The notes under the pieces are model-generated. The model worked only from the letters and a program-made list of their open reading frames with translations. It ran no database searches and was not told the DNA's origin. Made by a program: the position numbers and the translations under genes. This document shows positions 3,695 through 44,000 of a stretch of DNA of 64,000 nt, piece after piece. The stretch comes from Rhodococcus sp. IEGM 1379 (GTDB taxonomy: Bacteria > Actinomycetota > Actinomycetes > Mycobacteriales > Mycobacteriaceae). The stretch is from the NCBI RefSeq assembly GCF_030056815.1, contig NZ_JASHKR010000009.1, positions 1-64,000 on the forward strand, written 5' to 3'. The stretch's first letter is position 1; every line of letters begins with the position of its first letter.

Positions 3695-4906
3695 TTAACG
3701 GAGGTGCCCAGCAGCGCTGCGAGTGCGACGCACCTGCGAGTACTCGTAGCTGTTCTGCCAGGCGACGGTTGCGACCAGAACCCAGATGATCCATGTTGCG
3801 CTCATGTGCGCGCCGACCAGGCCCATGACGATGGGGATCGCGGTGCAGGGGAGTGCCCAGCCGAGCAGCCACCGCCGGTCTGATCGCGCAAAAAGTCCGG
3901 CCGTCGCACTGATGCCGAAATAGACTGCGACGCTTCCGCACAGCAACCAGCGAAGGCTTGTCGGTGTGTGCTCTGCGCCGTGTTCGGTGGCCGCACCCAA
4001 TCCGGCCACCAGCACGGCGATAGCGCCGGTAGTGAAGCAGTGCAGGGCCATGTCGATGCGAGCGGGGAACGCGCCGGAGCGAAGGTGTGGGACTCCCGCA
4101 TGGCCGTAGAGCAAGGACAATGACCACATGCCTGCCAATAGGACGAACGAGCCGATTGCCAGACTCACGATCGTCGAATCCCAGATCAGTTCCGATGCGG
4201 CGGAAATCACGAGGATGACGCCTTCGCCGAGCACGATGATGACGTAGAGACCGAGTCGTTCGGCGAGGTGCGCACGATCGGAATGCAGTGCCTCCAGTTC
4301 GGGAATCGGTCTGTCTCGATTCCCACGAATTCTGATGACTCGATCCAACTTCTCCTGCGCGTCCTCCATGACGGCAGAGCCGGATACAACGAACATGATG
4401 AGCAAATCGATCGTGACGCCGGCGGCCCACAGCCAGAGTCGGGCGTCGCCCTCCACCCAGAACGAGATGACCCAGGGGACAACACCGAGGGACATCTGCG
4501 CGATCGGCCAGTCCACGACGATCTGACCGTTGTGCCAGACGCGACTGGCAAGCAACCGCACCGCGACGTAGGCGATGGCAAAGGCCAGTGCGTGGTTCTC
4601 GTGGATTCCGGCGACCGCGGCCATCATCACAGCCAGTCCGAACATCGCGATCAGCATGCTCGGTATGCGGACCCGATCTCCGGCAACGTTGCCGTACATC
4701 GTGAAACATGCCCACGCCGTCCAGAACGCGAGGTACAGCAGCGCGTAGAGGCCGAAGTCCGACCAGGTTGGCGAGCCGTGCAGTAGGTGGGCGAGCTGTC
4801 CGATCCCGGCGACAACTACCAGATCGAAGAACAACTCGATCCACGACGCGTGCCGTTCGAGTACTGATTCCTGGCTTTGTCCCGGTGGTTCTTCCCGCTC
4901 CCGCAT
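3695..4906 (-). CDS. LtrA-family (low temperature requirement) membrane protein
   Basis: A polytopic membrane protein of 403 residues with about ten to twelve hydrophobic segments. The N-terminus SWIELFFDLVVVAGIGQLAHLL carries the ELFFDL signature of the LtrA (PF06772) family. The conserved EAL/RAHLAERLGLYVIIVLGE segment in the middle is also family-typical. LtrA was named from a Listeria growth defect in the cold, but the biochemical activity of the family is unknown. It is convergent with glpD (60 bp apart) and divergent from the LuxR-type regulator, with about 140 bp between the two starts. No defect is visible in the frame. Substrate and role cannot be told from sequence. Confidence 0.85.
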   Translation of the reverse strand: MREREEPPGQSQESVLERHASWIELFFDLVVVAGIGQLAHLLHGSPTWSDFGLYALLYLAFWTAWACFTMYGNVAGDRVRIPSMLIAMFGLAVMMAAVAGIHENHALAFAIAYVAVRLLASRVWHNGQIVVDWPIAQMSLGVVPWVISFWVEGDARLWLWAAGVTIDLLIMFVVSGSAVMEDAQEKLDRVIRIRGNRDRPIPELEALHSDRAHLAERLGLYVIIVLGEGVILVISAASELIWDSTIVSLAIGSFVLLAGMWSLSLLYGHAGVPHLRSGAFPARIDMALHCFTTGAIAVLVAGLGAATEHGAEHTPTSLRWLLCGSVAVYFGISATAGLFARSDRRWLLGWALPCTAIPIVMGLVGAHMSATWIIWVLVATVAWQNSYEYSQVRRTRSAAGHLR

Positions 4907-33381: not shown

Positions 33382-33498
33382 CGCCGTCTCTTTTCTCGAG
33401 GCGATTCTAAGGCTTGTCTTCCAAGGTAGACGGCCATTTCGGGCAGGACAAGGGGGCAGGTGCGGGAACACTCCAGCGGAGTGCCGCGTTGCCTAGGT

Positions 33499-34347
33499 AT
33501 GACCGAATCACAAGACGTGACCTCTGTTCCGAGCATTGTGCTGGCCGACGGCAAGACGATTCCTGCGTTGGGATTCGGTGTTTTCCAGGTTCCGGACGAC
33601 GAAACTCAGGAAGCCGTCTCGACCGCACTGAAGGCCGGATACCGCAGCATCGATACCGCCAAGATCTACGGCAACGAGGTAGGAGTCGGCCGTGCGATAG
33701 CCGAATCCGGCATCAACCGCGGCGACCTCTACATCACCACGAAGTTGTGGAATAGCGATCAGGGCTACGACTCGACGCTCGCGGCCTTCGACGCCAGCCT
33801 CGACAAATTGGGCCTCGACTACCTCGATCTGTACCTGATCCACTGGCCCGTCCCGTCACAGGACCTGTACGTCGAGACGTTCAAGGCATTTCAAAAGCTC
33901 AAGGCCGACGGCCGGGTTCGCTCCATCGGCGTCTCCAACTTCACCATCGAGAATCTCGAACGCGTCATCGGTGAGAGCGGTGAGGTGCCGGTCCTCAACC
34001 AGATCGAGCTTCACCCCAAGTTCAATCAGTCGGAACTGCGCGCCTTCCATACGGGCAAGGGAATCGCTACGGAGGCGTGGAGTCCACTCGGACAGGGCAC
34101 GGTGCTGACGGATCCCGTTCTGAAGAAGATTGCCGACGCCCACGGCGTCACCACAGCCCAGGTGATCATTCGCTGGCATCTGCAGATCGGGAACGTCGTC
34201 ATCCCCAAGTCAGTGACGCCTGCGCGGATCGAGGCGAACTTCGACGTCTTCGGATTTGCATTGACACCGGACGAGATCAACGCCATCGGCGCGCTCAATG
34301 ACCCGTCCGGTCGCATCGGTCCGGATCCGGCGGTGTTCGGAGGCTGA
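33499..34347 (+). CDS. Aldo/keto reductase (2,5-diketo-D-gluconate reductase-like)
   Basis: A 282-residue NADPH-dependent reductase with tetrad Asp52, Tyr57, Lys82 and His115 and the cofactor segment IPKSVTPARIEANFDVFGFA. It is clearly related to the reductase at 30142-30981 (same YGNE, TTKLW and LIHWP contexts), so the two are likely paralogues. The ATG 33499 lacks a strong ribosome site; the frame extends to 33460. It is divergent from the methyltransferase and ends before a strong terminator shared with the Old Yellow Enzyme gene. Confidence 0.92.
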   Translation: MTESQDVTSVPSIVLADGKTIPALGFGVFQVPDDETQEAVSTALKAGYRSIDTAKIYGNEVGVGRAIAESGINRGDLYITTKLWNSDQGYDSTLAAFDASLDKLGLDYLDLYLIHWPVPSQDLYVETFKAFQKLKADGRVRSIGVSNFTIENLERVIGESGEVPVLNQIELHPKFNQSELRAFHTGKGIATEAWSPLGQGTVLTDPVLKKIADAHGVTTAQVIIRWHLQIGNVVIPKSVTPARIEANFDVFGFALTPDEINAIGALNDPSGRIGPDPAVFGG

Positions 34348-34416: not shown

Positions 34417-35565
34417 CTAGTTCAGTTGCGAGCGATGCGCTGCCGTGAAGGCGATGTGCTCATCAGTGCGTCCGGTACGGAGCTTCTCCACCCACTCGGG
34501 ATCGGCGAGGAGTGCACGACCGACGGCAACCATGTCGAATTCGCCGTCCTCGTACTGAGATTCGAGACGTTCCAGTCCGGTGACCGATGATGCCGCGTCG
34601 GCGGTGAAAGCTGTGGTGAACACCGAATCGAGTCCGACCGATCCGACGGTGATGGTTGGCAGGCCCGTCAGCTTCTTCGTCCAGCCGGCCAGTCCGAGTT
34701 TGCCGTCTTCGCCGTCGAGTTCCGCAAACGCCGGTTCCCAGTGACGCCGCGTCGACGGATGCAACACATCGACTCCCGCGTCGACGAGCGGAGCGAGGAT
34801 GCGGCCGAGTTCATTGGGGCTCTGGGCGATTCGAGCGTCGTACTGGCCCGACTTCCACTGTGAGAATCGGTAGACGATCGCAAACTCGTTTCCGACGGCC
34901 TCGCGAATGGCGGCAACAACTTCAGCGGGGAAGCGGGTACGCGCTTCGAGTGATCCGCCGTAGGAATCGGTGCGGACATTGCTTCCGGCCCAAAGGAACT
35001 CGTCGAGCAGGTAGCCGTGCGCTCCGTGCAGTTCCAGTCCGTCGAAGCCGGTGTTCTTCGCGTTGAGTGCAGCGTCGACCCAGGCCTGCTTCAAGTTTTC
35101 GAGATCCGCGGAGGTGAACTCCCGTCCCAACGGAGTGCCGTCCAATGCCAGGCCAGAAGGACTGACGGTCTGGACGTCCGGATTGAGCTGAGGCTTGTCG
35201 CCACGTTCGACACCCAGGTGCCAGAGCTGCGGAATGATCGATCCGCCCTCGGCGTGGACGGCGTCGACAACTGACTTCCAGCCGTCGAGGCTCTCGTCGC
35301 CGTAGATGCGCGGTACTCGAGTGTGGGGTCCGGCGGCCGGGTCCGGGATATACGTACCTTCGGTGATGATCAGGCCGACGCCACCGGCTGCGCGACGCCG
35401 GTAGTACTCGGCAACGTCGGCGCCGGGGATTCCGTCCGGCGAGAATGCGCGGGTCATCGGGGCCATGGCGAAGCGGTTACGCAACGAGAGCGATTTCACC
35501 TCGAACGGCTCGAAGAGGCCGCGCAGGGCTGAGGATGTGGTCGAAGCGTGGGAAAGAGTCACGGA
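34417..35565 (-). CDS. NADH:flavin oxidoreductase (Old Yellow Enzyme family)
   Basis: A TIM-barrel FMN enzyme of about 382 residues that reduces activated alkenes with NAD(P)H. Motifs: LRNRFAMAPMTRAF at the N-terminus, GLIITEGTY, the GFDGLELHGAHGYLLDEFL segment with substrate-binding His, NVRTDSYGGSLEARTRF, and the C-terminal FDMVAVGRALLADPEWV phosphate-binding part. GTG 35565 is preferred over TTG 35583, though neither has a strong ribosome site. The typical Tyr/His active-site context is kept. Substrate unknown, and no regulator is adjacent. Confidence 0.9.
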   Translation of the reverse strand, partial: SVTLSHASTTSSALRGLFEPFEVKSLSLRNRFAMAPMTRAFSPDGIPGADVAEYYRRRAAGGVGLIITEGTYIPDPAAGPHTRVPRIYGDESLDGWKSVVDAVHAEGGSIIPQLWHLGVERGDKPQLNPDVQTVSPSGLALDGTPLGREFTSADLENLKQAWVDAALNAKNTGFDGLELHGAHGYLLDEFLWAGSNVRTDSYGGSLEARTRFPAEVVAAIREAVGNEFAIVYRFSQWKSGQYDARIAQSPNELGRILAPLVDAGVDVLHPSTRRHWEPAFAELDGEDGKLGLAGWTKKLTGLPTITVGSVGLDSVFTTAFTADAASSVTGLERLESQYEDGEFDMVAVGRALLADPEWVEKLRTGRTDEHIAFTAAHRSQLN

Positions 35566-35695
35566 GCTCTTCAACGCGAACAATGCGCTGCCTATTCCGC
35601 GGCCCCGCCACCTGCGTCGGTGAGCCGGTGAGCGGGTGCAACCAGCTGTCTTGCAGGAATTTTCGACCGTTCGGATTGTCGGTACATTTTAGTTT

Positions 35696-35710
35696 GTGCA
35701 TTAACTATTA
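35696..35710. promoter_or_regulatory. OhrR-like operator motif upstream of ctaD
   Basis: The minus strand of this 15-bp site reads TAATAGTTAATGCAC, matching TAATAGTTACTGCAC (37747-37761) in the palindrome in front of the OhrR-like gene at 14 of 15 positions, with further similarity downstream. It lies about 65-80 bp before the ctaD start codon, the expected place for a promoter. The mirrored half is poorly kept here, so a binding protein might contact it with lower affinity. Confidence 0.55.
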
Positions 35711-35775
35711 ACATGCGATATGGTCGTGCAAAAAGTTCTTGAGAGCGGTATCGAGCACGAAAGAGGACGACGAGC

Positions 35776-37521
35776 ATGACAACCACGGTGCCGAATGATC
35801 GGGCTGGCGAGCTGGAACCGATTCCGGAGCGGCCCTACCCGAAGCGACGTGATCCCAAGGGGTCGTGGATGCTCGAGATGTTCACGACCACCGATCACAA
35901 GAAGATCGGGATCATGTACCTGATCACCGCATTCGGGTTCTTTCTGATCGGCGGTTTGATGGCGCTGTTCATGCGCGCGGAACTGGCAGTGCCAGGTATG
36001 CAGTTTCTCTCGAACGAGCAGTTCAATCAGCTGTTCACCATGCATGGCACTGTCATGCTGCTGCTGTATGCGACGCCTGTGGTTTTCGGTTTCGCCAACT
36101 ACATCTTGCCGTTGCATATCGGTGCCCCTGATGTGGCGTTCCCGCGTCTGAATGCATTCGGGTTCTGGCTCTTCACTTTTGGCGGTTTGATCGTTCTCGG
36201 CGGGTTCATCACGCCCGGCGGTGCCGCCGACTTCGGCTGGACCGCGTACACCCCGCTCTCTGGGGCGGTACATAGTCCGGGCGTTGGCGCTGACCTTTGG
36301 GTCTTCGGTCTGACAGTCGGTGGTCTCGGGACTATCCTCGGCGCGGTCAACATGATCACTACAGTGATCTGCCTGCGTGCCCCCGGTATGACCATGTTCC
36401 GCATGTCCATCTTCACCTGGAACATCTTCATCACCAGCATCCTGATCCTGATCGCTTTTCCGTTGCTGACCGCCGCGTTCATGGGTCTGTTCGTCGATCG
36501 GCATCTCGGTGGTCATATCTTCGACCCGGCAACGGGCGGAGTTCTGTTGTGGCAGCACCTGTTCTGGTTCTTCGGTCACCCCGAGGTGTACATCATCGCG
36601 CTGCCGTTCTTCGGCATCGTCTCGGAGATCTTCCCGGTCTTCAGCCGTAAGCCGATCTTCGGCTACAGCGGCCTGGTGTACGCAACGCTGGCCATCGCAG
36701 CCCTGTCGATCGCAGTGTGGGCTCACCACATGTACGCAACCGGTGCTGTTCTGCTGCCGTACTTCTCGTTCATGACGTTCTTGATCGCGGTGCCGACAGG
36801 CGTGAAGATATTCAACTGGATCGGAACTATGTGGAAGGGGCAGTTGACCTTCGAGTCGCCGATGCTCTTCTCGATCGGCTTCCTGATCACCTTCCTCTTC
36901 GGTGGACTGTCGGGCGTCATCCTCGCAAGCCCGCCGCTCGACTTCCACGTCACGGACACGTATTTTGTTGTCGCCCACTTCCACTACGTGGTGTTCGGCA
37001 CCGTCGTGTTCGCCACCTACGCCGGTATCTACTTCTGGTTTCCGAAGATGACCGGCCGCATGATGGACGAGCGCCTCGGCAAGTGGCACTTCTGGACCAC
37101 GTTCGTCGGTTTCCACGGCACGTTCCTCGTGCAGCACTGGTTGGGTGCCGAAGGTATGCCGCGTCGTTACGCCGACTACCTGCCCAGCGACGGTTTCACC
37201 GTGCTGAACTCGGTATCGACAATCTTCGCCTTCGTTCTCGGCGCCTCCACGCTGCCGTTCCTCTGGAACGTCTTCAAGAGCTACCGATACGGCGAAGTTG
37301 TCACGGTCGACGATCCGTGGGGTTACGGAAACTCGCTCGAATGGGCAACCAGTTGCCCGCCGCCGCGCCACAACTTCACCGAGTTGCCGCGCATCCGCAG
37401 CGAGCGTCCGGCATTCGAACTGCACTACCCGCACATGGTTGAGCGGATGCGCGCAGAAGCGCACGTCGGTCTCACCGGACAGCCGACGTCGACCGAACCG
37501 AACGCGTCGATCGCGCCATGA
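35776..37521 (+). CDS. ctaD: Cytochrome c oxidase subunit I
   Basis: The catalytic subunit of the aa3-type terminal oxidase: 581 residues, twelve membrane helices, reducing O2 with electrons from cytochrome c and pumping protons. Heme and CuB motifs are intact: FTMHGTVML (heme a ligand), [16 protein letters not shown] with the cross-linked His/Tyr pair, [12 protein letters not shown] (two CuB His) and [11 protein letters not shown] (heme a3/a ligands). AGAGGA lies upstream of the ATG. Other subunits are not adjacent, as is common in actinobacteria. Two features stand out: a motif in its promoter shared with the downstream OhrR-like gene, and a coupled 59-residue membrane protein. Confidence 0.97.
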
Positions 37522-37697
37522 GTGCCACCACAATCGCGCTCTGCGGTGTCCTCACCGCACTCACCCTCATTGTCGGTGGAATCCTCGCGGCCGCGAACAC
37601 AACTACCAGGCCGACCGTCACTCACACTGTAGTGCGGACATCCACCGTCCTCGCGGCGGCTTCGACCCTCGTCGCATTCATTCACCTCACAGCCTGA
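37518..37697 (+). CDS. 59-residue membrane protein translationally coupled to ctaD
   Basis: ATG 37518 overlaps the ctaD stop in the classical ATGA form, and the frame runs to TGA 37695-37697. The product ([20 protein letters not shown] at the start) has two hydrophobic segments (about residues 5-26 and 42-58) separated by a Thr-rich loop, [16 protein letters not shown]. It is below common annotation cut-offs. Codon use is like that of its neighbours, with third positions mostly C or G. I do not recognise a family. By position it could be a small accessory subunit or assembly factor of cytochrome oxidase, but this is inference. Confidence 0.65.
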
Positions 37698-37730
37698 GAG
37701 CCGGACCTCCGAAAGGTGACGATCGTCGCG

Positions 37731-37771
37731 AGATTAATTAGTGCGGTAATAGTTACTGCACTAATTAATCT
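37731..37771. promoter_or_regulatory. 41-bp near-perfect palindrome in front of the OhrR-like gene
   Basis: AGATTAATTAGTGC (37731-37744) is mirrored by GCACTAATTAATCT (37758-37771), and inside these GTAA and TTAC pair around TAG. In all, 18 of 19 positions per arm pair. It ends 15 bases before ATG 37787 (6 before GTG 37778), so a bound dimer (or two) would cover the promoter. This is the expected autoregulatory operator of a MarR/OhrR protein. Confidence 0.75.
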
Positions 37772-37786
37772 GATATCGTGGGATTC

Positions 37787-38260
37787 ATGACCACGAAAGC
37801 TCCGCAGGTGCAGTTGGATGATCCGCTGGCTCTCGACCGGCAGGTGTGTTTTGCGCTTGCCATCGCGAACCGGGCAGTGTTGTCCGTGTATCGCCCTCTG
37901 CTCGAGCCGATGGGTCTGACACATCCCCAGTATCTGGTGATGCTGGCACTGTGGGGCAAGGCTCCGATGGCGGTCAAGGAAATCGGGCAGGCTCTGCAGC
38001 TTGATTCGCCGACGCTGTCTCCGCTTCTCAAGCGACTCGAAGCGTCCGGGTTGATCACGCGAACCCGGAGTCGGGCAGACGAACGTCAACTCGACGTCGA
38101 TCTCACAGAAGCGGGTGTGGCGTTGCGCAGCGAGGCGGAGAAAATTCCACCGGCGGTTGTCGCGAAACTCGGTGTGAGCCTTGGGGAACTCGAGGAACTT
38201 CACAATGTGCTGACGCGAGTCAACGAAGCTGCGTTGCGTGCAGGAGCTTTGGGTGAATGA
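37787..38260 (+). CDS. OhrR-type MarR-family redox regulator
   Basis: A 157-residue MarR-family repressor with OhrR features: the N-terminal LDRQVCFALAIANRAV with a single redox cysteine (Cys21), and the tyrosines of SVYRPLLEPMGLTHPQYLVM that hydrogen-bond that Cys in OhrR. The winged helix has LDSPTLSPLLKRLEASGLI and RSRADERQ. OhrR senses organic hydroperoxides and normally represses ohr. No ohr gene is in the window. ATG 37787 is chosen; GTG 37778 is possible. There is no clear ribosome site, so the mRNA may be nearly leaderless. The upstream palindrome is its likely operator. Confidence 0.85.
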   Translation: MTTKAPQVQLDDPLALDRQVCFALAIANRAVLSVYRPLLEPMGLTHPQYLVMLALWGKAPMAVKEIGQALQLDSPTLSPLLKRLEASGLITRTRSRADERQLDVDLTEAGVALRSEAEKIPPAVVAKLGVSLGELEELHNVLTRVNEAALRAGALGE

Positions 38261-38312
38261 GAAAAATGTAATGACAATTTCAACGTCGATGCATACCGAA
38301 CAGGTGAGTTCA

Positions 38313-38708
38313 GTGACTACCAGGAAACAACGATTGAGCCCGAATCCTATTCAGTGGATAGGCTATTCGTTTGGTCGCAAGTTGCCCGACTCCATGCAGG
38401 AGTGGGTACGCAAGGACTTGATCGGCGATTGGGCTGTGCCGAGGCACCTTCTCCGCAGTATGGTTCCCTTCCTGCCGGTTTTTGTGGTCTTCATGATGTT
38501 CCCCGGTCCCTGGGCGCTGCGCGCGTCGATGGTTCTTCTCGGTGTGCTTCTGGCTCTGTTCTACTCGGTCGCGTACATGGCGCAGAACCGGTCTCGTCGT
38601 CTCGAACGTCACGGATTGCCGGCAGATCTCGAGAACCCGAAGAAGATTTCACGCCAGGACGCCGAGAAAGCTGCCTACGAAAAGCTACACGGCCCGATCT
38701 CCTCCTGA
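38313..38708 (+). CDS. DUF5313 family membrane protein
   Basis: A 131-residue protein with a central pair of membrane helices (about residues 47-85) and charged ends. The N-terminal segment SPNPIQWIGYSFGRKLPDSM and the following QEWVRKDLIGDWAVPRHLLR match the actinobacterial DUF5313 family, of unknown function. GTG 38313 has AGGTGAG upstream; earlier in-frame ATGs at 38271 and 38289 are possible. It follows the OhrR-like gene, probably in the same transcript, and its stop directly abuts the stop of the convergent MHYT gene. Confidence 0.75.
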   Translation: MTTRKQRLSPNPIQWIGYSFGRKLPDSMQEWVRKDLIGDWAVPRHLLRSMVPFLPVFVVFMMFPGPWALRASMVLLGVLLALFYSVAYMAQNRSRRLERHGLPADLENPKKISRQDAEKAAYEKLHGPISS

Positions 38709-39544: not shown

Positions 39545-40132
39545 TCAAGCGAGAGCTGCGGCCGCAAGAAATTCGAGTGAGTATTCGGTAACCGCGATCA
39601 GTGCCTGTTTGGCGGACTCGCGGTTTCGCGCATCGATCTCGATCATCGGAATTCGATTGGGTAGTGCCAGCGCCTGACGGAGATCGCTGGCCGAGTGGAT
39701 GGGCGCACCGTCAAAGCGGTTGACTGCCACGATGAACGGTAGGCCGCGGGCCTCGAAGAAGTCGACGGCAGCAAAACTGTCTTCGAGTCGACGCGTGTCG
39801 ACGAGGATGACAGCCCCGATGGCGCCGGTGATGAGGTCGTCCCACATGAACCAGAAGCGCCGCTGACCAGGAGTGCCGAACAGGTAGAGAACCAGGTCGT
39901 CGGCCAGGGTGATACGGCCGAAATCCATTGCCACCGTTGTGGTGTTCTTGTTCGGAGTAGCGCCGAGGTGATCGATACCGTCACTGGCATCGGTGACCAT
40001 TGCTTCGGTCCGCAGGGGGACGATCTCGGAGACCGTTCCCACCAGAGTCGTCTTTCCGACGCCGAATCCTCCGGCGATCACGATTTTTGTCGATTTGACG
40101 CGAGACGGTGCGTCAGAGTGCCCGAAGTCCAC
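39545..40132 (-). CDS. cvnD: Conservon GTP-binding protein CvnD
   Basis: A 195-residue small Ras-like GTPase. P-loop GGFGVGKTTLVGTVSE, G3 motif FGTPGQRRFWFMWD (TPGQ in place of DxxG), and G4 as NRFDG in place of NKxD, the usual conservon pattern. The start GTG 40132 lies 20 bases inside the end of the CvnC gene. In Streptomyces conservons the GTPase is the last member of CvnA-B-C-D, a membrane complex thought to act like an eukaryotic GPCR/G-protein unit. Here an MHYT sensor gene follows. Confidence 0.93.
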   Translation of the reverse strand: MDFGHSDAPSRVKSTKIVIAGGFGVGKTTLVGTVSEIVPLRTEAMVTDASDGIDHLGATPNKNTTTVAMDFGRITLADDLVLYLFGTPGQRRFWFMWDDLITGAIGAVILVDTRRLEDSFAAVDFFEARGLPFIVAVNRFDGAPIHSASDLRQALALPNRIPMIEIDARNRESAKQALIAVTEYSLEFLAAAALA

Positions 40133-40487
40133 TGAGGGTCCTTTCGATCAATTCGCGGCGCTCGACGCTGGTCGCATCGCTTCGCAGAGTGGCTTGTACT
40201 TCCAATGCCCCGGTGACGACGAGATCCGCCACCAGAACCCGTGCCACGCCGATCGGAACAGCAAGGTGCGCAGCGATTTCCGCGATGGAGATTCGCTGTT
40301 CACACAGGGTGACAATCGACGCACGGATGTCCTCAGGTGCAAGGCGTTTCGTGAGGGCGTCTTCGACCGTCGCAACTATTGCTTCGAGCGGAAGATCGAT
40401 GGACGGTATTGTCCGACCTTCGGTGAGCGCGTAGGGGCGAACCAGATTCGGTTCGATGTCAACGTGCCCGGATCGATGATGAGGCAT
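40113..40487 (-). CDS. cvnC: Conservon protein CvnC (DUF742)
   Basis: A 124-residue DUF742 protein: the typical LVRPYALTEGRTIP near the N-terminus and the helix-turn-helix-like region EQRISIAEIAAHLAVPIGVARVLVADL. The ATG 40487 comes 5 bases after the CvnB stop. The DNA-binding-like fold has been proposed to take part in CvnA-D complexes. It overlaps CvnD by 20 bp, which supports coupled translation. Confidence 0.92.
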   Translation of the reverse strand: MPHHRSGHVDIEPNLVRPYALTEGRTIPSIDLPLEAIVATVEDALTKRLAPEDIRASIVTLCEQRISIAEIAAHLAVPIGVARVLVADLVVTGALEVQATLRSDATSVERRELIERTLSGLRAL

Positions 40488-40492
40488 CGAGA

Positions 40493-40909
40493 TCAGAAAT
40501 CCCGACCTGATCGGGGAGCGATGTCCATGGTGGTTCCGACCCGGTCCACGAGAGTTGCCATCTCGTAACCTATCTGGCCGATATCGCAACCCGCGACGGC
40601 GAGCGCCGCTAGGTACGCGCCGCTGCCGACACCCATGAGCAGTAGGTAACCGTTCTCCATTTCGACTACCGATTGCATGACGGCACCGCCGTCGAACAAA
40701 CGTGATGCACCCGCCGACAAGCTGGCGAGTCCGGATGTCACGGCAGCCAATTGGTCTGCACGGTCGAGCGGAAGGTGGGTGCTCGCAGCCGTCAACAGTC
40801 CGTCGGCCGAGACGATGATCGCGTGGCTCACGCCCGGAACGTCACGTGCGAAGCCAGACACCAACCAATCGAGTGAGCGAGGAGTCTCTTGGGCTCCGAC
40901 AGAATTCAC
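40493..40909 (-). CDS. cvnB: Conservon protein CvnB (roadblock/LC7)
   Basis: A 138-residue roadblock/LC7-type protein, the family that works as a partner of small GTPases (GAP-like or scaffold). Residues 12-110 form the domain: [35 protein letters not shown] and [18 protein letters not shown]. The GTG start overlaps the CvnA stop by 4 bases. In the conservon it likely modulates CvnD. Confidence 0.93.
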
Positions 40910-43770
40910 TGTTCTCCTTCATCGTTCTGCCCGGTCGTGGCCGAGTGCGGGTGGGTGGCGCCATGGCGCACGGTGGACAAATCGGCAGGGTTCTCGCCGA
41001 CATGGCGTCGTCCGCGGCTGACGCCGGACTGATAGTCGCTCCATCCCCGTCGGACGTTTTCCGGATCGGTGGTCTGGCGGTGAGCGCCGGACCGCAGCGG
41101 GGTGATGGTGGTTCCGGCGGTGCCGGGAACCAACCGGGCACCGCGGTCGCGGATCGGGAGACCGGAATCTGAGACCTTGGCGACCGGTAGTTCGAACGAT
41201 GCGCGGGCAGCGACCCACCCCTGATCGGCATCAGTTGTCCAGGCGGTTCCGCTTGTGGCAGTGGAGGTTTGTTCCGTCGGATCGACCAGCCATTCGGAGA
41301 CCATCCTGGCAAAGATCGGCGATGCTATCGGTGTAGTGCCTGGGGCTGGGTCCGGAAGTTCGGTGGTGCGAACAGCCGCGCGGGGCGGGAACCCGTCACT
41401 AGCTCGGGAGGAGAAGAAGGCCGCGGTATTGGTCGGGGTCGGGGAGCTCAGCCGGTGCCGGGGTTCCGGTTCCCCGTTCTTCGGTTCCCCGCTGTTCACT
41501 TCATTGCTCTTCGTCTGAGGAGCAACGCTTTCGGTAGCGGGAGCCACAGACGTCGGGACCTCCGCGATAGTGTCACCGATGCCCGGCGCTCCACTTGTCC
41601 CGGGGGTGCGACGCGGAAGTGCAGCTTCTTCGGGGAGCGCAACAACTGCCAGCGTGGGTGCGCCGGCAACTGGAGGCGGCAGTGTGACCCGGATGGTGTT
41701 ACCCGGTTGTCGCTGCGGAAGTCCGGTCGCGGACAGTGGCGTTGCTTCGGTTTTCAGGGGATTGCTGTTCAGTGGCGCCGAAACCTGAACCGGCGTGACC
41801 TGCGCAGTCACAGCGGGGACTACAGCCCGGGCTGGGGTTGCTGCCGGAGCACCGGTGCGAGCCGGGGCGATGAACGGCGCAGACGGCGTCCGAGCTGAGT
41901 CTTGCCCCGGCGCTTCGAGCAGCCCTGCCGGAAGGAGAACCGAGGCAGTGATTCCGTTTCGGTCCTGCGCAACTCCGGTGGGGCGTAGGCGAACCGAAAT
42001 GTTGTATCGGCGGCTGATGCGGCTGATGACGAACAAGCCCATGTGGCGTGCGGTGTCGGGACTCATCTCGCCGCCTGAAGCCAAACGGCCGTTGGCGTCG
42101 AGTAGATCTGTCGTGGACATTCCGATGCCGAGGTCAGCGACCTCCACCAGCATGGAACCTTCGGACGTAGGGCCAGCGTTGATGGTCACGGTTGTTTCCG
42201 GCGGTGAGTATCGCAGCGCATTGTCGAGAAGTTCGGCGATGAGATGCACGACGTCGGCACTGGACTGTCCGGTGAGGACGCCTGCCGGAATCTGTCCGAG
42301 TTCGACGCGCAGGTAGTCCTCGACGCCGGATACGGAGGCGCGTAGAGCGTCCGCGAGTGACATCGGTGCGGATCGTCCGCGGCGACCTTCGGTGCCGGAG
42401 AGGATGAGGAGGTTGTCGCTGTTGCGTCGCATCCGGGCAGCGATGTGGTCGATGCGGAAGAGGTTCTCGAGTCGCCGCGGATCACCTTCGTCCTGCTCGA
42501 GTTGTTCGATCAGGCCGAGTTGCTGCTCGACGAGGGACTTGTTGCGGCGCGACAGCGTCTCGAACATGTCGTTGACCTGGCGCCGCAGTGTTGCCTGCTC
42601 GCCGGCGAGCATAATGGCCTGCGCGTGCATGTCGTCGACGGCACGTGCGAGCTGACCGATTTCCTCGTGGGTGCGTATGGGTACGCGGGTGAATTCCAGA
42701 TCGGTTGTCTTCTCGCCGGCCCGGATGCGTTCGATGGCCTCGGGTAGTCCACGGCGGGCAGCCTGGAGGGCGGCGAAGCGCAGGCGTCGGATGGGATCGA
42801 CGAGCGATCGGCTGATGATCAGCGCGATGACAAGTGCAGCGAGGACGGCGCCGAGGACGAGTGCGGTGTCTCGAAGTGCTGCCGATCGAGCGATGTTGGC
42901 CTCAGTGGTTACCGTGCTGCCGAACTGGCCCACGGCGGCGTCGGTCAGGGCGTTGTACTGGTCGCTGCTGGTCTGAAGGCCGATGTCGATCTGACTGCTC
43001 AGCGGCGATGTGGAGGCCGTCGCACCGATCTCGTCGACGCGATTCTGCGCTGACGCTGTCAGAGCCTTGACGGCGTTGACGGCTGTGGGATTGCTGTCTG
43101 CTTCGTTAGTGGGAAGCACGCCGCCCAGGGCAGCAAGTTCTGCTCCGGCCGTGGTAGCCAACGCGGTCCGGGCTTGTTGATCGAGGCGGCCGGAACCGAA
43201 CAGGATTCGCTGGTCGGCCAGCGCGCGTCGCGCTGCCCACAGCGTTGCGAATTCCCCGCCGTGCTCGCGCAGAATCGGTCGCTGGGAGGCCTTGATGATG
43301 TCGGTGAATGCGCTCGAGATATCGGTCGAGACTTCGTTGACCCGGGCGACGAGTCGGGCCGGCGCGACTGCGCCGGAGGCAACCTCTTCGACGATCGATC
43401 GACTATTTTGCAGGGCACGGGTGACCTGCCCGTTGAGTGCGTCGTCAGTCTGGAAGGTTCGACCGGCGGTGACAAGTTCTTGCATCGAATTCGTTACTGC
43501 CGCAGTGGCAGTCGTGGTTTCGGTGCCGGAGGACGACGCGACGGCGAGTTCGTAGAGTGCGTCTTCCAGATGAAGGGCCGCGGGGACTGCGAGGGCGCGT
43601 TCGGAAGACGAGCTGAGTTTTGCGGCCTCGGCGAGTTCAGCCTGGATCCGAAATGCACCGAGCATGACGGCGATGAGCATCGGAACGGTGAGGACTGCGA
43701 CAACCTTCCATCCGAGTCGCCATTCGCTGATCGACCACCACGCGGTTTTTGTGTGTGCATCGTTTTTCAT
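40906..43770 (-). CDS. cvnA: Conservon sensor kinase CvnA
   Basis: A large membrane sensor kinase of about 954 residues. Two membrane helices (about 22-40 and 303-320) enclose a 260-residue helical sensor of nitrate/sulphonate type, followed by a HAMP linker. The dimerisation region has His442 in [20 protein letters not shown], and the ATPase has [12 protein letters not shown] and VADLGIGMS with [13 protein letters not shown]. The last 250-300 residues are Pro/Ala/Thr-rich and low complexity, common in CvnA proteins. ATG 43770 is chosen; GTG 43803 is possible and has its own GGGGG stretch. It leads cvnA-B-C-D-MHYT. Confidence 0.9.
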
Positions 43771-44000
43771 GCGGACCGCTGCCCCTTCATGACTGCCCCT
43801 CACGTCAACCCCCCCGATTGGGTCATTGCCCGAGTTCCTCCGATTGTGTGTGATCGGAAGAAGTTAGCTGAACGGTAACAGAAGGTCCTTTGTCTGGCCA
43901 CACGCGTGCCCGGTTTCGGGGCGAGAGCTCTGCATTTCCTGTTTGTACTGGTGGGGGTCCAATCGGACAACCGTAACCAAATGGTCGCTAGAGGCTGCGC

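Follow-up and report, generated by a model that had tools for sequence, protein, structure and literature searches.

A regulator related to the peroxide sensor OhrR and ctaD3, an orphan paralogue of the gene for subunit I of aa3 cytochrome c oxidase, appear to carry the same operator in their promoters, and this arrangement is predicted with good support to be a regulatory circuit of two promoters, conserved within one Rhodococcus group. The locus lies in a 64,000-nucleotide stretch of DNA (the window) on contig C230 of a 6.1-Mb genome. Judged by the regulator, among the best 80 of 482 loci, the nearest named relatives are Rhodococcus. We refer to the regulator as OhrR2, a label introduced here for the conserved OhrR-like subfamily to which it belongs. 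Reasoning from the DNA and protein sequences, we consider it likely that OhrR2 represses itself and ctaD3, and that a cysteine-switched release would allow CtaD3 to be made as the core of an alternative aa3 oxidase that uses shared subunits.

The genes are arranged in the order aldo-keto reductase, Old Yellow Enzyme-type oxidoreductase (OYE), ctaD3, a 59-aa ORF, the OhrR-like gene, a gene for a DUF5313 protein and, on the minus strand, a gene for an MHYT protein (Table 1). In a separate minus-strand group at 39545-43803, two ORFs lie between a gene for a GTPase-like protein (ATP_bind_1) and one for a HATPase protein; profiles were run for the two outer genes, and we take the group to resemble a conservon cluster.

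Table 1. Features of the ctaD3-OhrR2 region in window coordinates.
Feature	Position	Strand	Basis or remark
Aldo-keto reductase	33460-34347		
Old Yellow Enzyme-type oxidoreductase (OYE), divergent to ctaD3 and perhaps also served by the operator before ctaD3	34417-35583	-	PF00724; faces OhrR2 over the operator in 4 ctaD3-less relatives
Operator core for OhrR2 before ctaD3, TAGTTTGTGCATTAACTA	35690-35707		2 mismatches to consensus; rank 1 in window; in 6/6 ctaD3 species
Probable ctaD3 -10, TATGGT	35719-35724	+	read from the sequence; within conserved block
ctaD3, orphan paralogue for subunit I of aa3 cytochrome c oxidase	35776-37521	+	NF050116, COX1
59-aa ORF overlapping the ctaD3 stop	37518-37697	+	no family match; two hydrophobic stretches by eye
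41-bp palindrome before OhrR2, two overlapping operator cores	37731-37771		
Possible OhrR2 -10, TATCGT, 7 bp before ATG	37774-37779	+	inferred from sequence
OhrR2, OhrR-like MarR regulator with sensing Cys	37787-38260	+	best PDB match 2pfb; subfamily alignments
DUF5313 protein, usual OhrR2 partner	38271-38708	+	PF17240

The first-pass annotation of this DNA had proposed that an operator core in front of the OhrR-like gene is repeated before ctaD, and both copies are indeed present. The 15-mer TAATAGTTAATGCAC occupies 35696-35710 on the minus strand, 66-80 bp before the ctaD3 ATG (35776). Its counterpart TAATAGTTACTGCAC, identical at 14 of 15 positions, lies on the plus strand at 37747-37761, inside the 41-bp palindrome. 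When the window was shuffled with its dinucleotides preserved (n = 100, up to 3 mismatches), the 15-mer occurred 0.32 times on average, and at least two copies appeared in 4 of the 100 shuffles. The likeness extends beyond the 15-mer to an 18-bp near-palindromic core (35690-35707 and 37750-37767), with two mismatches at each place to the operator consensus of relatives. Within the palindrome, the left core (37735-37752) is weak and the right core strong, with scores of 14.7 and 25.4 in the 76-locus matrix described below. The ctaD3 promoter lacks the second palindrome arm and contains a single core, which is followed after 11 bp by TATGGT. A scan with the sigma-70 consensus called no promoter at ctaD3. 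A -35 element placed at 17-bp spacing from TATGGT would fall inside the core, so that a bound repressor would be expected to block the polymerase. The candidate -10 of OhrR2 is so close to the ATG that it would imply a leaderless start.

A search of the whole genome for the operator consensus TAGTTAGTGCACTAACTA (up to 3 mismatches) returned exactly two sites, namely those in the ctaD3 and OhrR2 promoters, and none for the reversed control word. The same search in 28 genomes of the genus gave 24 operator sites, with 15 at OhrR2, 6 at ctaD3 and 3 elsewhere (one genome each: G024, G019 and G008). Since the reversed word matched 26 times in these genomes, the number of sites is not special by itself; their location is.

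The element is a recurrent feature in front of OhrR2 genes from Rhodococcus, Nocardia, Tsukamurella and Hoyosella. As a safeguard against circularity, we ran an unseeded motif search on 28 non-redundant OhrR2 upstream regions (from 38) of genera other than Rhodococcus. The best word was present in 27 of the 28 regions, as compared to at most 7 in one shuffled set. Applied to the 64-kb window, the resulting matrix gave its highest score to the ctaD3 site (32.4), followed by the OhrR2 site (27.5). All of the six best matches printed fell at these two places, the sixth with a score of 12.1. We also seeded a symmetric matrix of 18 bp by eye and trained it on 76 ctaD3-less loci; it scored the ctaD3 site at 28.4, the OhrR2 site at 25.4 and the best unrelated place in the window at 11.6. 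The corresponding values were 29.9, 25.5 and 14.5 for a matrix built from the 38 non-Rhodococcus loci alone. Sites scoring at least 20 were found in 68 of the 76 training regions and in none of the remaining 8. Under an independent-base model, a score of at least 28.3 is expected about 0.0015 times per genome.

Is this operator a property of ctaD genes in general? A census of the 28 genus genomes yielded 77 ctaD matches, 75 of which were scored over the full 700 bp upstream (the partial matches G027:C505 and G026:C191 were left out). The operator is present in all six ctaD3 upstream regions, at -86 or -87 and with scores of 27.7 to 28.4, and in none of the 69 other ctaD upstream regions, where the best score is 7.1. 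On the latter result we rejected a wider link between OhrR2 and ctaD across the genus. Among the named relatives that carry ctaD3 are R. erythropolis NBRC 15567, R. qingshengii IEGM 1359 and the strains P-2 and IEGM 1409. In the six-species alignment, 17 of 18 core columns are invariant, compared to 10 of 40 directly upstream. The only change within the core is C to T in IEGM 1409, and T accounts for 36 of 152 counts at this position of the matrix. The -10 region (22/24 columns) and the leader (34/40) are conserved as well, at about 93% to the window. Conservation is thus not specific to the operator but as expected of a promoter. With the ctaD3 site kept in all six ctaD3 species and the OhrR2 sites recurring across relatives, the anticipated conservation of both sites is borne out.

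A divergent gene on the other side of the site offers a different explanation. The ctaD3-side operator could serve OYE, with ctaD3 merely adjacent and any effect on it incidental. In the window, the site precedes the OYE ORF by 107 bp, and OYE faces OhrR2 directly across the operator in the ctaD3-less relatives G003, G007, G010 and G021; OYE may therefore be the older target. Nevertheless, we consider this explanation unlikely, because the operator forms the left edge of a conserved block that extends towards ctaD3, while on the OYE side only 30 of 104 columns are invariant. In addition, 73 of the best 80 of 482 OhrR2 loci contain no OYE match. The other seven comprise five close copies within the species group and two distant ones (31-32% identity).

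Alternatively, the ctaD3 site could be a relic of an operator duplication that occurred when ctaD3 was inserted, and would no longer be bound. The gene is indeed flanked by two operator copies. In the five other ctaD3 loci (L111, L112, L113, L115, at 3953-3955, and also L053) ctaD3 runs on and terminates at a TAG within the OhrR2 operator, which means that gene and operator overlap. This geometry suggests insertion at an operator. Loss of function after such an insertion appears quite improbable in view of the fact that the site has been kept at a dS of about 0.6 (window versus R. erythropolis), a distance at which the 40 bp directly upstream are only 40% identical, and that it outscores the site of OhrR2 itself. 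In the window, about 210 bp (37522-37730), including most of the 59-aa ORF, separate the ctaD3 stop from the palindrome. This ORF had been counted by the first-pass annotation as a coupled small protein within the regulon. Profile searches found no family for it, and no homologue exists in any other locus compared, so we dropped it from the regulon. What stands of the proposed regulon is one regulator subfamily with one operator and two predicted target promoters, its own and that of ctaD3, conserved in six species.

We then characterized the regulator. OhrR2, a protein of 157 residues encoded at 37787-38257 (stop codon excluded), contains a MarR domain, and its best PDB match is OhrR from X. 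campestris (2pfb, E = 3.7e-38). It scores below the equivalog cut-off of the NCBIfam OhrR model NF052638 (144.6 bits versus 200), which is a weak test since the model name suggests Vibrio. A second OhrR-like gene, 54% identical to OhrR2, is located directly before ohr elsewhere in the same genome (locus L002). Among 61 genomes searched, 45 match either OhrR branch at E = 1e-30 or better. In the relatives, the canonical copies adjoin ohr in 20 of 20 cases (fetched from 32 such rows), while the OhrR2 branch is not linked to ohr. OhrR2 is therefore not the canonical OhrR; the genome has an ohrR-ohr pair elsewhere with another operator. As a separate observation, two genomes contain two OhrR2-type copies each, G012 (L067 and L071) and G020 (L068 and L078).

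Could the canonical OhrR rather than OhrR2 bind the ctaD3 site? Both operators contain the word TTGTGCA, and a matrix built from canonical ohrR promoters finds its best window position at the ctaD3 site. However, the score there, 9.8, hardly differs from that of the next position (9.2) and is far from the 19.3-32.8 of the 21 training promoters, which makes this assignment very improbable. In the opposite direction, the OhrR2 matrix scores the canonical ohrR promoter at 14.1, comparable to the weak left core of the OhrR2 palindrome, so some cross-talk between the two regulators is possible.

Two sets of loci describe the surroundings of OhrR2. The first comprises 40 loci fetched from the 41 OhrR2-like rows found in relatives, the exception being G023, which lies at the edge of a contig; the second comprises named loci, the best 80 of 482, and shares genomes with the first. 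DUF5313 is encoded in the same locus as OhrR2 in 34/40 and 78/80 loci, respectively, sometimes divergently across the operator; ctaD matches occur in 5/40 and 4/80. The only mention of DUF5313 that we found in the literature is apparently in a study on Sinorhizobium.

The alignment of 121 OhrR2 sequences, which counts some genomes twice, points to an altered sensory pocket. The equivalents of Cys22 and Tyr36 are each kept in 120 of 121 sequences, with one gap, and 114 sequences contain a single cysteine. All 121 have His at the position of Tyr47. At that of Tyr26, 112 have Ala, 5 have Ser and 3 have Val, and one has a gap. Canonical OhrR proteins keep all three tyrosines (21/21). Tyr36 and Tyr47 of X. 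campestris OhrR are reported to matter both for sensing of the oxidized cysteine and for the network of hydrogen bonds to Cys22 (PMC5201249). A changed signal is thus likely, and in its lack of Tyr47 OhrR2 departs from a defining feature of OhrR. With the cysteine kept and the pocket altered, the inducer of OhrR2 may not be a peroxide.

This consideration leads to a reading in which the regulation is as proposed but OhrR2 senses electrophiles (quinones, enones, aldehydes) or some other ligand, with ctaD3 as part of the response. We give it close to an even chance. In addition to the exchanged tyrosines, OYE and two aldo-keto reductase genes are nearby, and the genome already possesses a canonical ohrR-ohr pair. 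On the other hand, the Cys and Tyr36 equivalents are retained, and OYE is seldom found near OhrR2 outside the species group; the neighbouring OYE and aldo-keto reductase genes render electrophiles a reasonable conjecture, limited to this species group. Repression of ctaD3 by OhrR2, our preferred reading, is common to both views of the inducer.

The predicted target has the profile and the motifs of an oxidase subunit. CtaD3 scores 1007.5 bits against the curated actinobacterial aa3 model NF050116 (cut-off 880). Residues 11-571 of its 581 residues align with chain F of 6adq, which we take to be the M. smegmatis structure, and the HPEVY and HHMY stretches, presumably the catalytic motifs of CtaD, are present. 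A protein tree rooted at its midpoint, for which no support values were printed, places CtaD3 as sister to the canonical Rhodococcus CtaD. The gene is under strong purifying selection, with dN/dS values of 0.038-0.046 to three relatives (0.046 to R. erythropolis); the value for OhrR2 is about 0.05. No other oxidase subunit genes lie beside ctaD3. The genome encodes three ctaD but only one COX2 (ctaC) and one COX3 (ctaE) match, both on contig C96. CtaD3, if functional, must therefore share these partners. Comparison of six CtaD3 with 23 CtaD1 sequences revealed 17 fixed differences, eight of which are located at or before residue 52 and six at residues 129-142. They include S129G, a position that we presume to correspond to Ser134 of P. 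denitrificans and that makes this exchange a candidate D-channel change.

Multiple ctaD copies are found elsewhere in Rhodococcus, with five matches each in G012, G014 and G024 and four each in G005, G009 and G021, and these copies fall into several subtrees of the protein tree. Furthermore, 61 Rhodococcus plasmid records match window positions 35600-38300. All 20 of the matches listed (from 136 records) bear a ctaD annotation, with 82-84% identity over about 60% of the query. In R. qingshengii PM1, selenite raises a ctaD product, the copy being unspecified in the available part of the report (PMC13414329).

The history of the locus was examined in allele trees from a 10-genome comparison. Window positions 35600-38550 form a mosaic. 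The flanks are like those of G003 and G021, two genomes without ctaD3 at this place, with 91-94% identity, and the segment from ctaD3 to OhrR2 is like that of the R. erythropolis group. OhrR2 of the window is about 78% identical to the alleles of G003 and G021 and 80-90% to those of R. erythropolis. The window groups with G003 and G021 in the OYE tree (support 1.0). The OhrR2 tree unites G003, G021, R. globerulus and G010, none of which has ctaD3 at this place, and excludes the window (0.995); the DUF5313 tree gives the same grouping (0.974). The ctaD3-bearing OhrR2 alleles are not a clade, as the window allele branches with the ctaD3-less clade (0.694). From the window to R. erythropolis, dS is 0.60 for ctaD3, 0.67 for OhrR2 and 0.64 for OYE, while the values between the window and G003 are 1.19 for OhrR2 and 0.19 for OYE. 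A recent transfer of a ctaD3 cassette into the species of the window is not needed, since the ctaD3 and OhrR2 distances to R. erythropolis equal that of OYE. Replacement of the allele, perhaps in G003 and G021, fits better. It appears that, on one occasion or more, ctaD3 was retained or replaced along with its OhrR2 allele.

From these observations we infer binding, repression, cysteine switching and subunit exchange in the following sequence. OhrR2 would bind TAGTTAGTGCACTAACTA-like sites as a MarR-type dimer. At its own promoter, it would cover the two overlapping cores and repress itself and DUF5313. At the ctaD3 promoter, it would sit on one strong core over the presumed -35 and spacer and block transcription. 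An oxidant or electrophile would modify the single conserved cysteine, whereupon the DNA would be released. CtaD3 would then be made and could join the products of the single ctaC and ctaE genes to form an alternative aa3 oxidase. Exchange of the aa3 subunit is the most likely purpose of this circuit, and the operator before the spare ctaD gene suggests that the cells may swap in an alternative oxidase core under chemical stress. More tentatively, and with somewhat less than even confidence, we propose for the R. erythropolis group that the catalytic subunit of the aa3 oxidase is swapped in response to stress through a thiol-based MarR switch whose OhrR pocket has been rewired (Tyr to His), and that regulator, both operators and spare subunit act as one exchangeable cassette.

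If this circuit is true, it joins two themes that have so far been known separately, orphan catalytic subunits and the control of terminal oxidases by MarR-type regulators, and an actinobacterial aa3 oxidase would be retunable by a dedicated redox or electrophile sensor. The analysis also delimits the OhrR-like subfamily across Nocardiaceae and related families, giving its operator and the DUF5313 protein as its usual partner, which opens its ligand and regulon to direct tests. Our literature search, with most subscription journals outside its coverage, found nothing on this regulator, on ctaD3 or on OhrR-type control of aa3 subunit I. The first-pass annotation knew of no link between such a regulator and a terminal oxidase; this view needs to be narrowed. 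MarR-type oxidase repressors exist, as CioR and OsbR are reported to repress cioRAB in Chromobacterium violaceum (PMC11837568, PMC8567585), but they act on cytochrome bd and not on an aa3 subunit.

The predicted role of OhrR2 resembles that of CioR and OsbR in that a MarR-type repressor acts on a terminal oxidase. In contrast, CioR is described as a GbsR-type regulator of a whole cytochrome bd operon, while OhrR2 would control an orphan aa3 subunit. By its profiled neighbours (ctaD3, DUF5313, OYE, MHYT and aldo-keto reductase) and its best solved relatives, which are OhrR proteins, OhrR2 also does not appear to be of the CioR type. A parallel for the target is MpaR of Pseudomonas aeruginosa, which is reported to control the orphan ccoN4 under respiratory stress through a palindromic motif (PMC10790758). 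Both cases combine an orphan catalytic subunit, a dedicated neighbouring regulator and a palindromic motif. They differ in that MpaR is reported to be needed for expression, is predicted to bind PLP, serves a cbb3 oxidase and responds to a cyanide signal. In Streptomyces avermitilis, OhrR is reported to act directly on ctaB (PMC6034001). Like OhrR2 by prediction, this is an actinobacterial OhrR acting directly on a gene for terminal oxidase biogenesis; unlike OhrR2, it is described there as a canonical protein with a ACAATTNAATTGT-type box, and ctaB makes a heme precursor and not subunit I. Finally, EstR is reported to be an OhrR paralogue with a target other than ohr (PMC5201249). OhrR2 shares with OhrR and EstR the MarR fold, the sensing cysteine, the Tyr36 equivalent and a palindrome before its own gene. 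It differs from both by the His in place of Tyr47, the mostly Ala residue in place of Tyr26, the mostly single cysteine, its location away from ohr, a different operator and, as its predicted target, an oxidase subunit.
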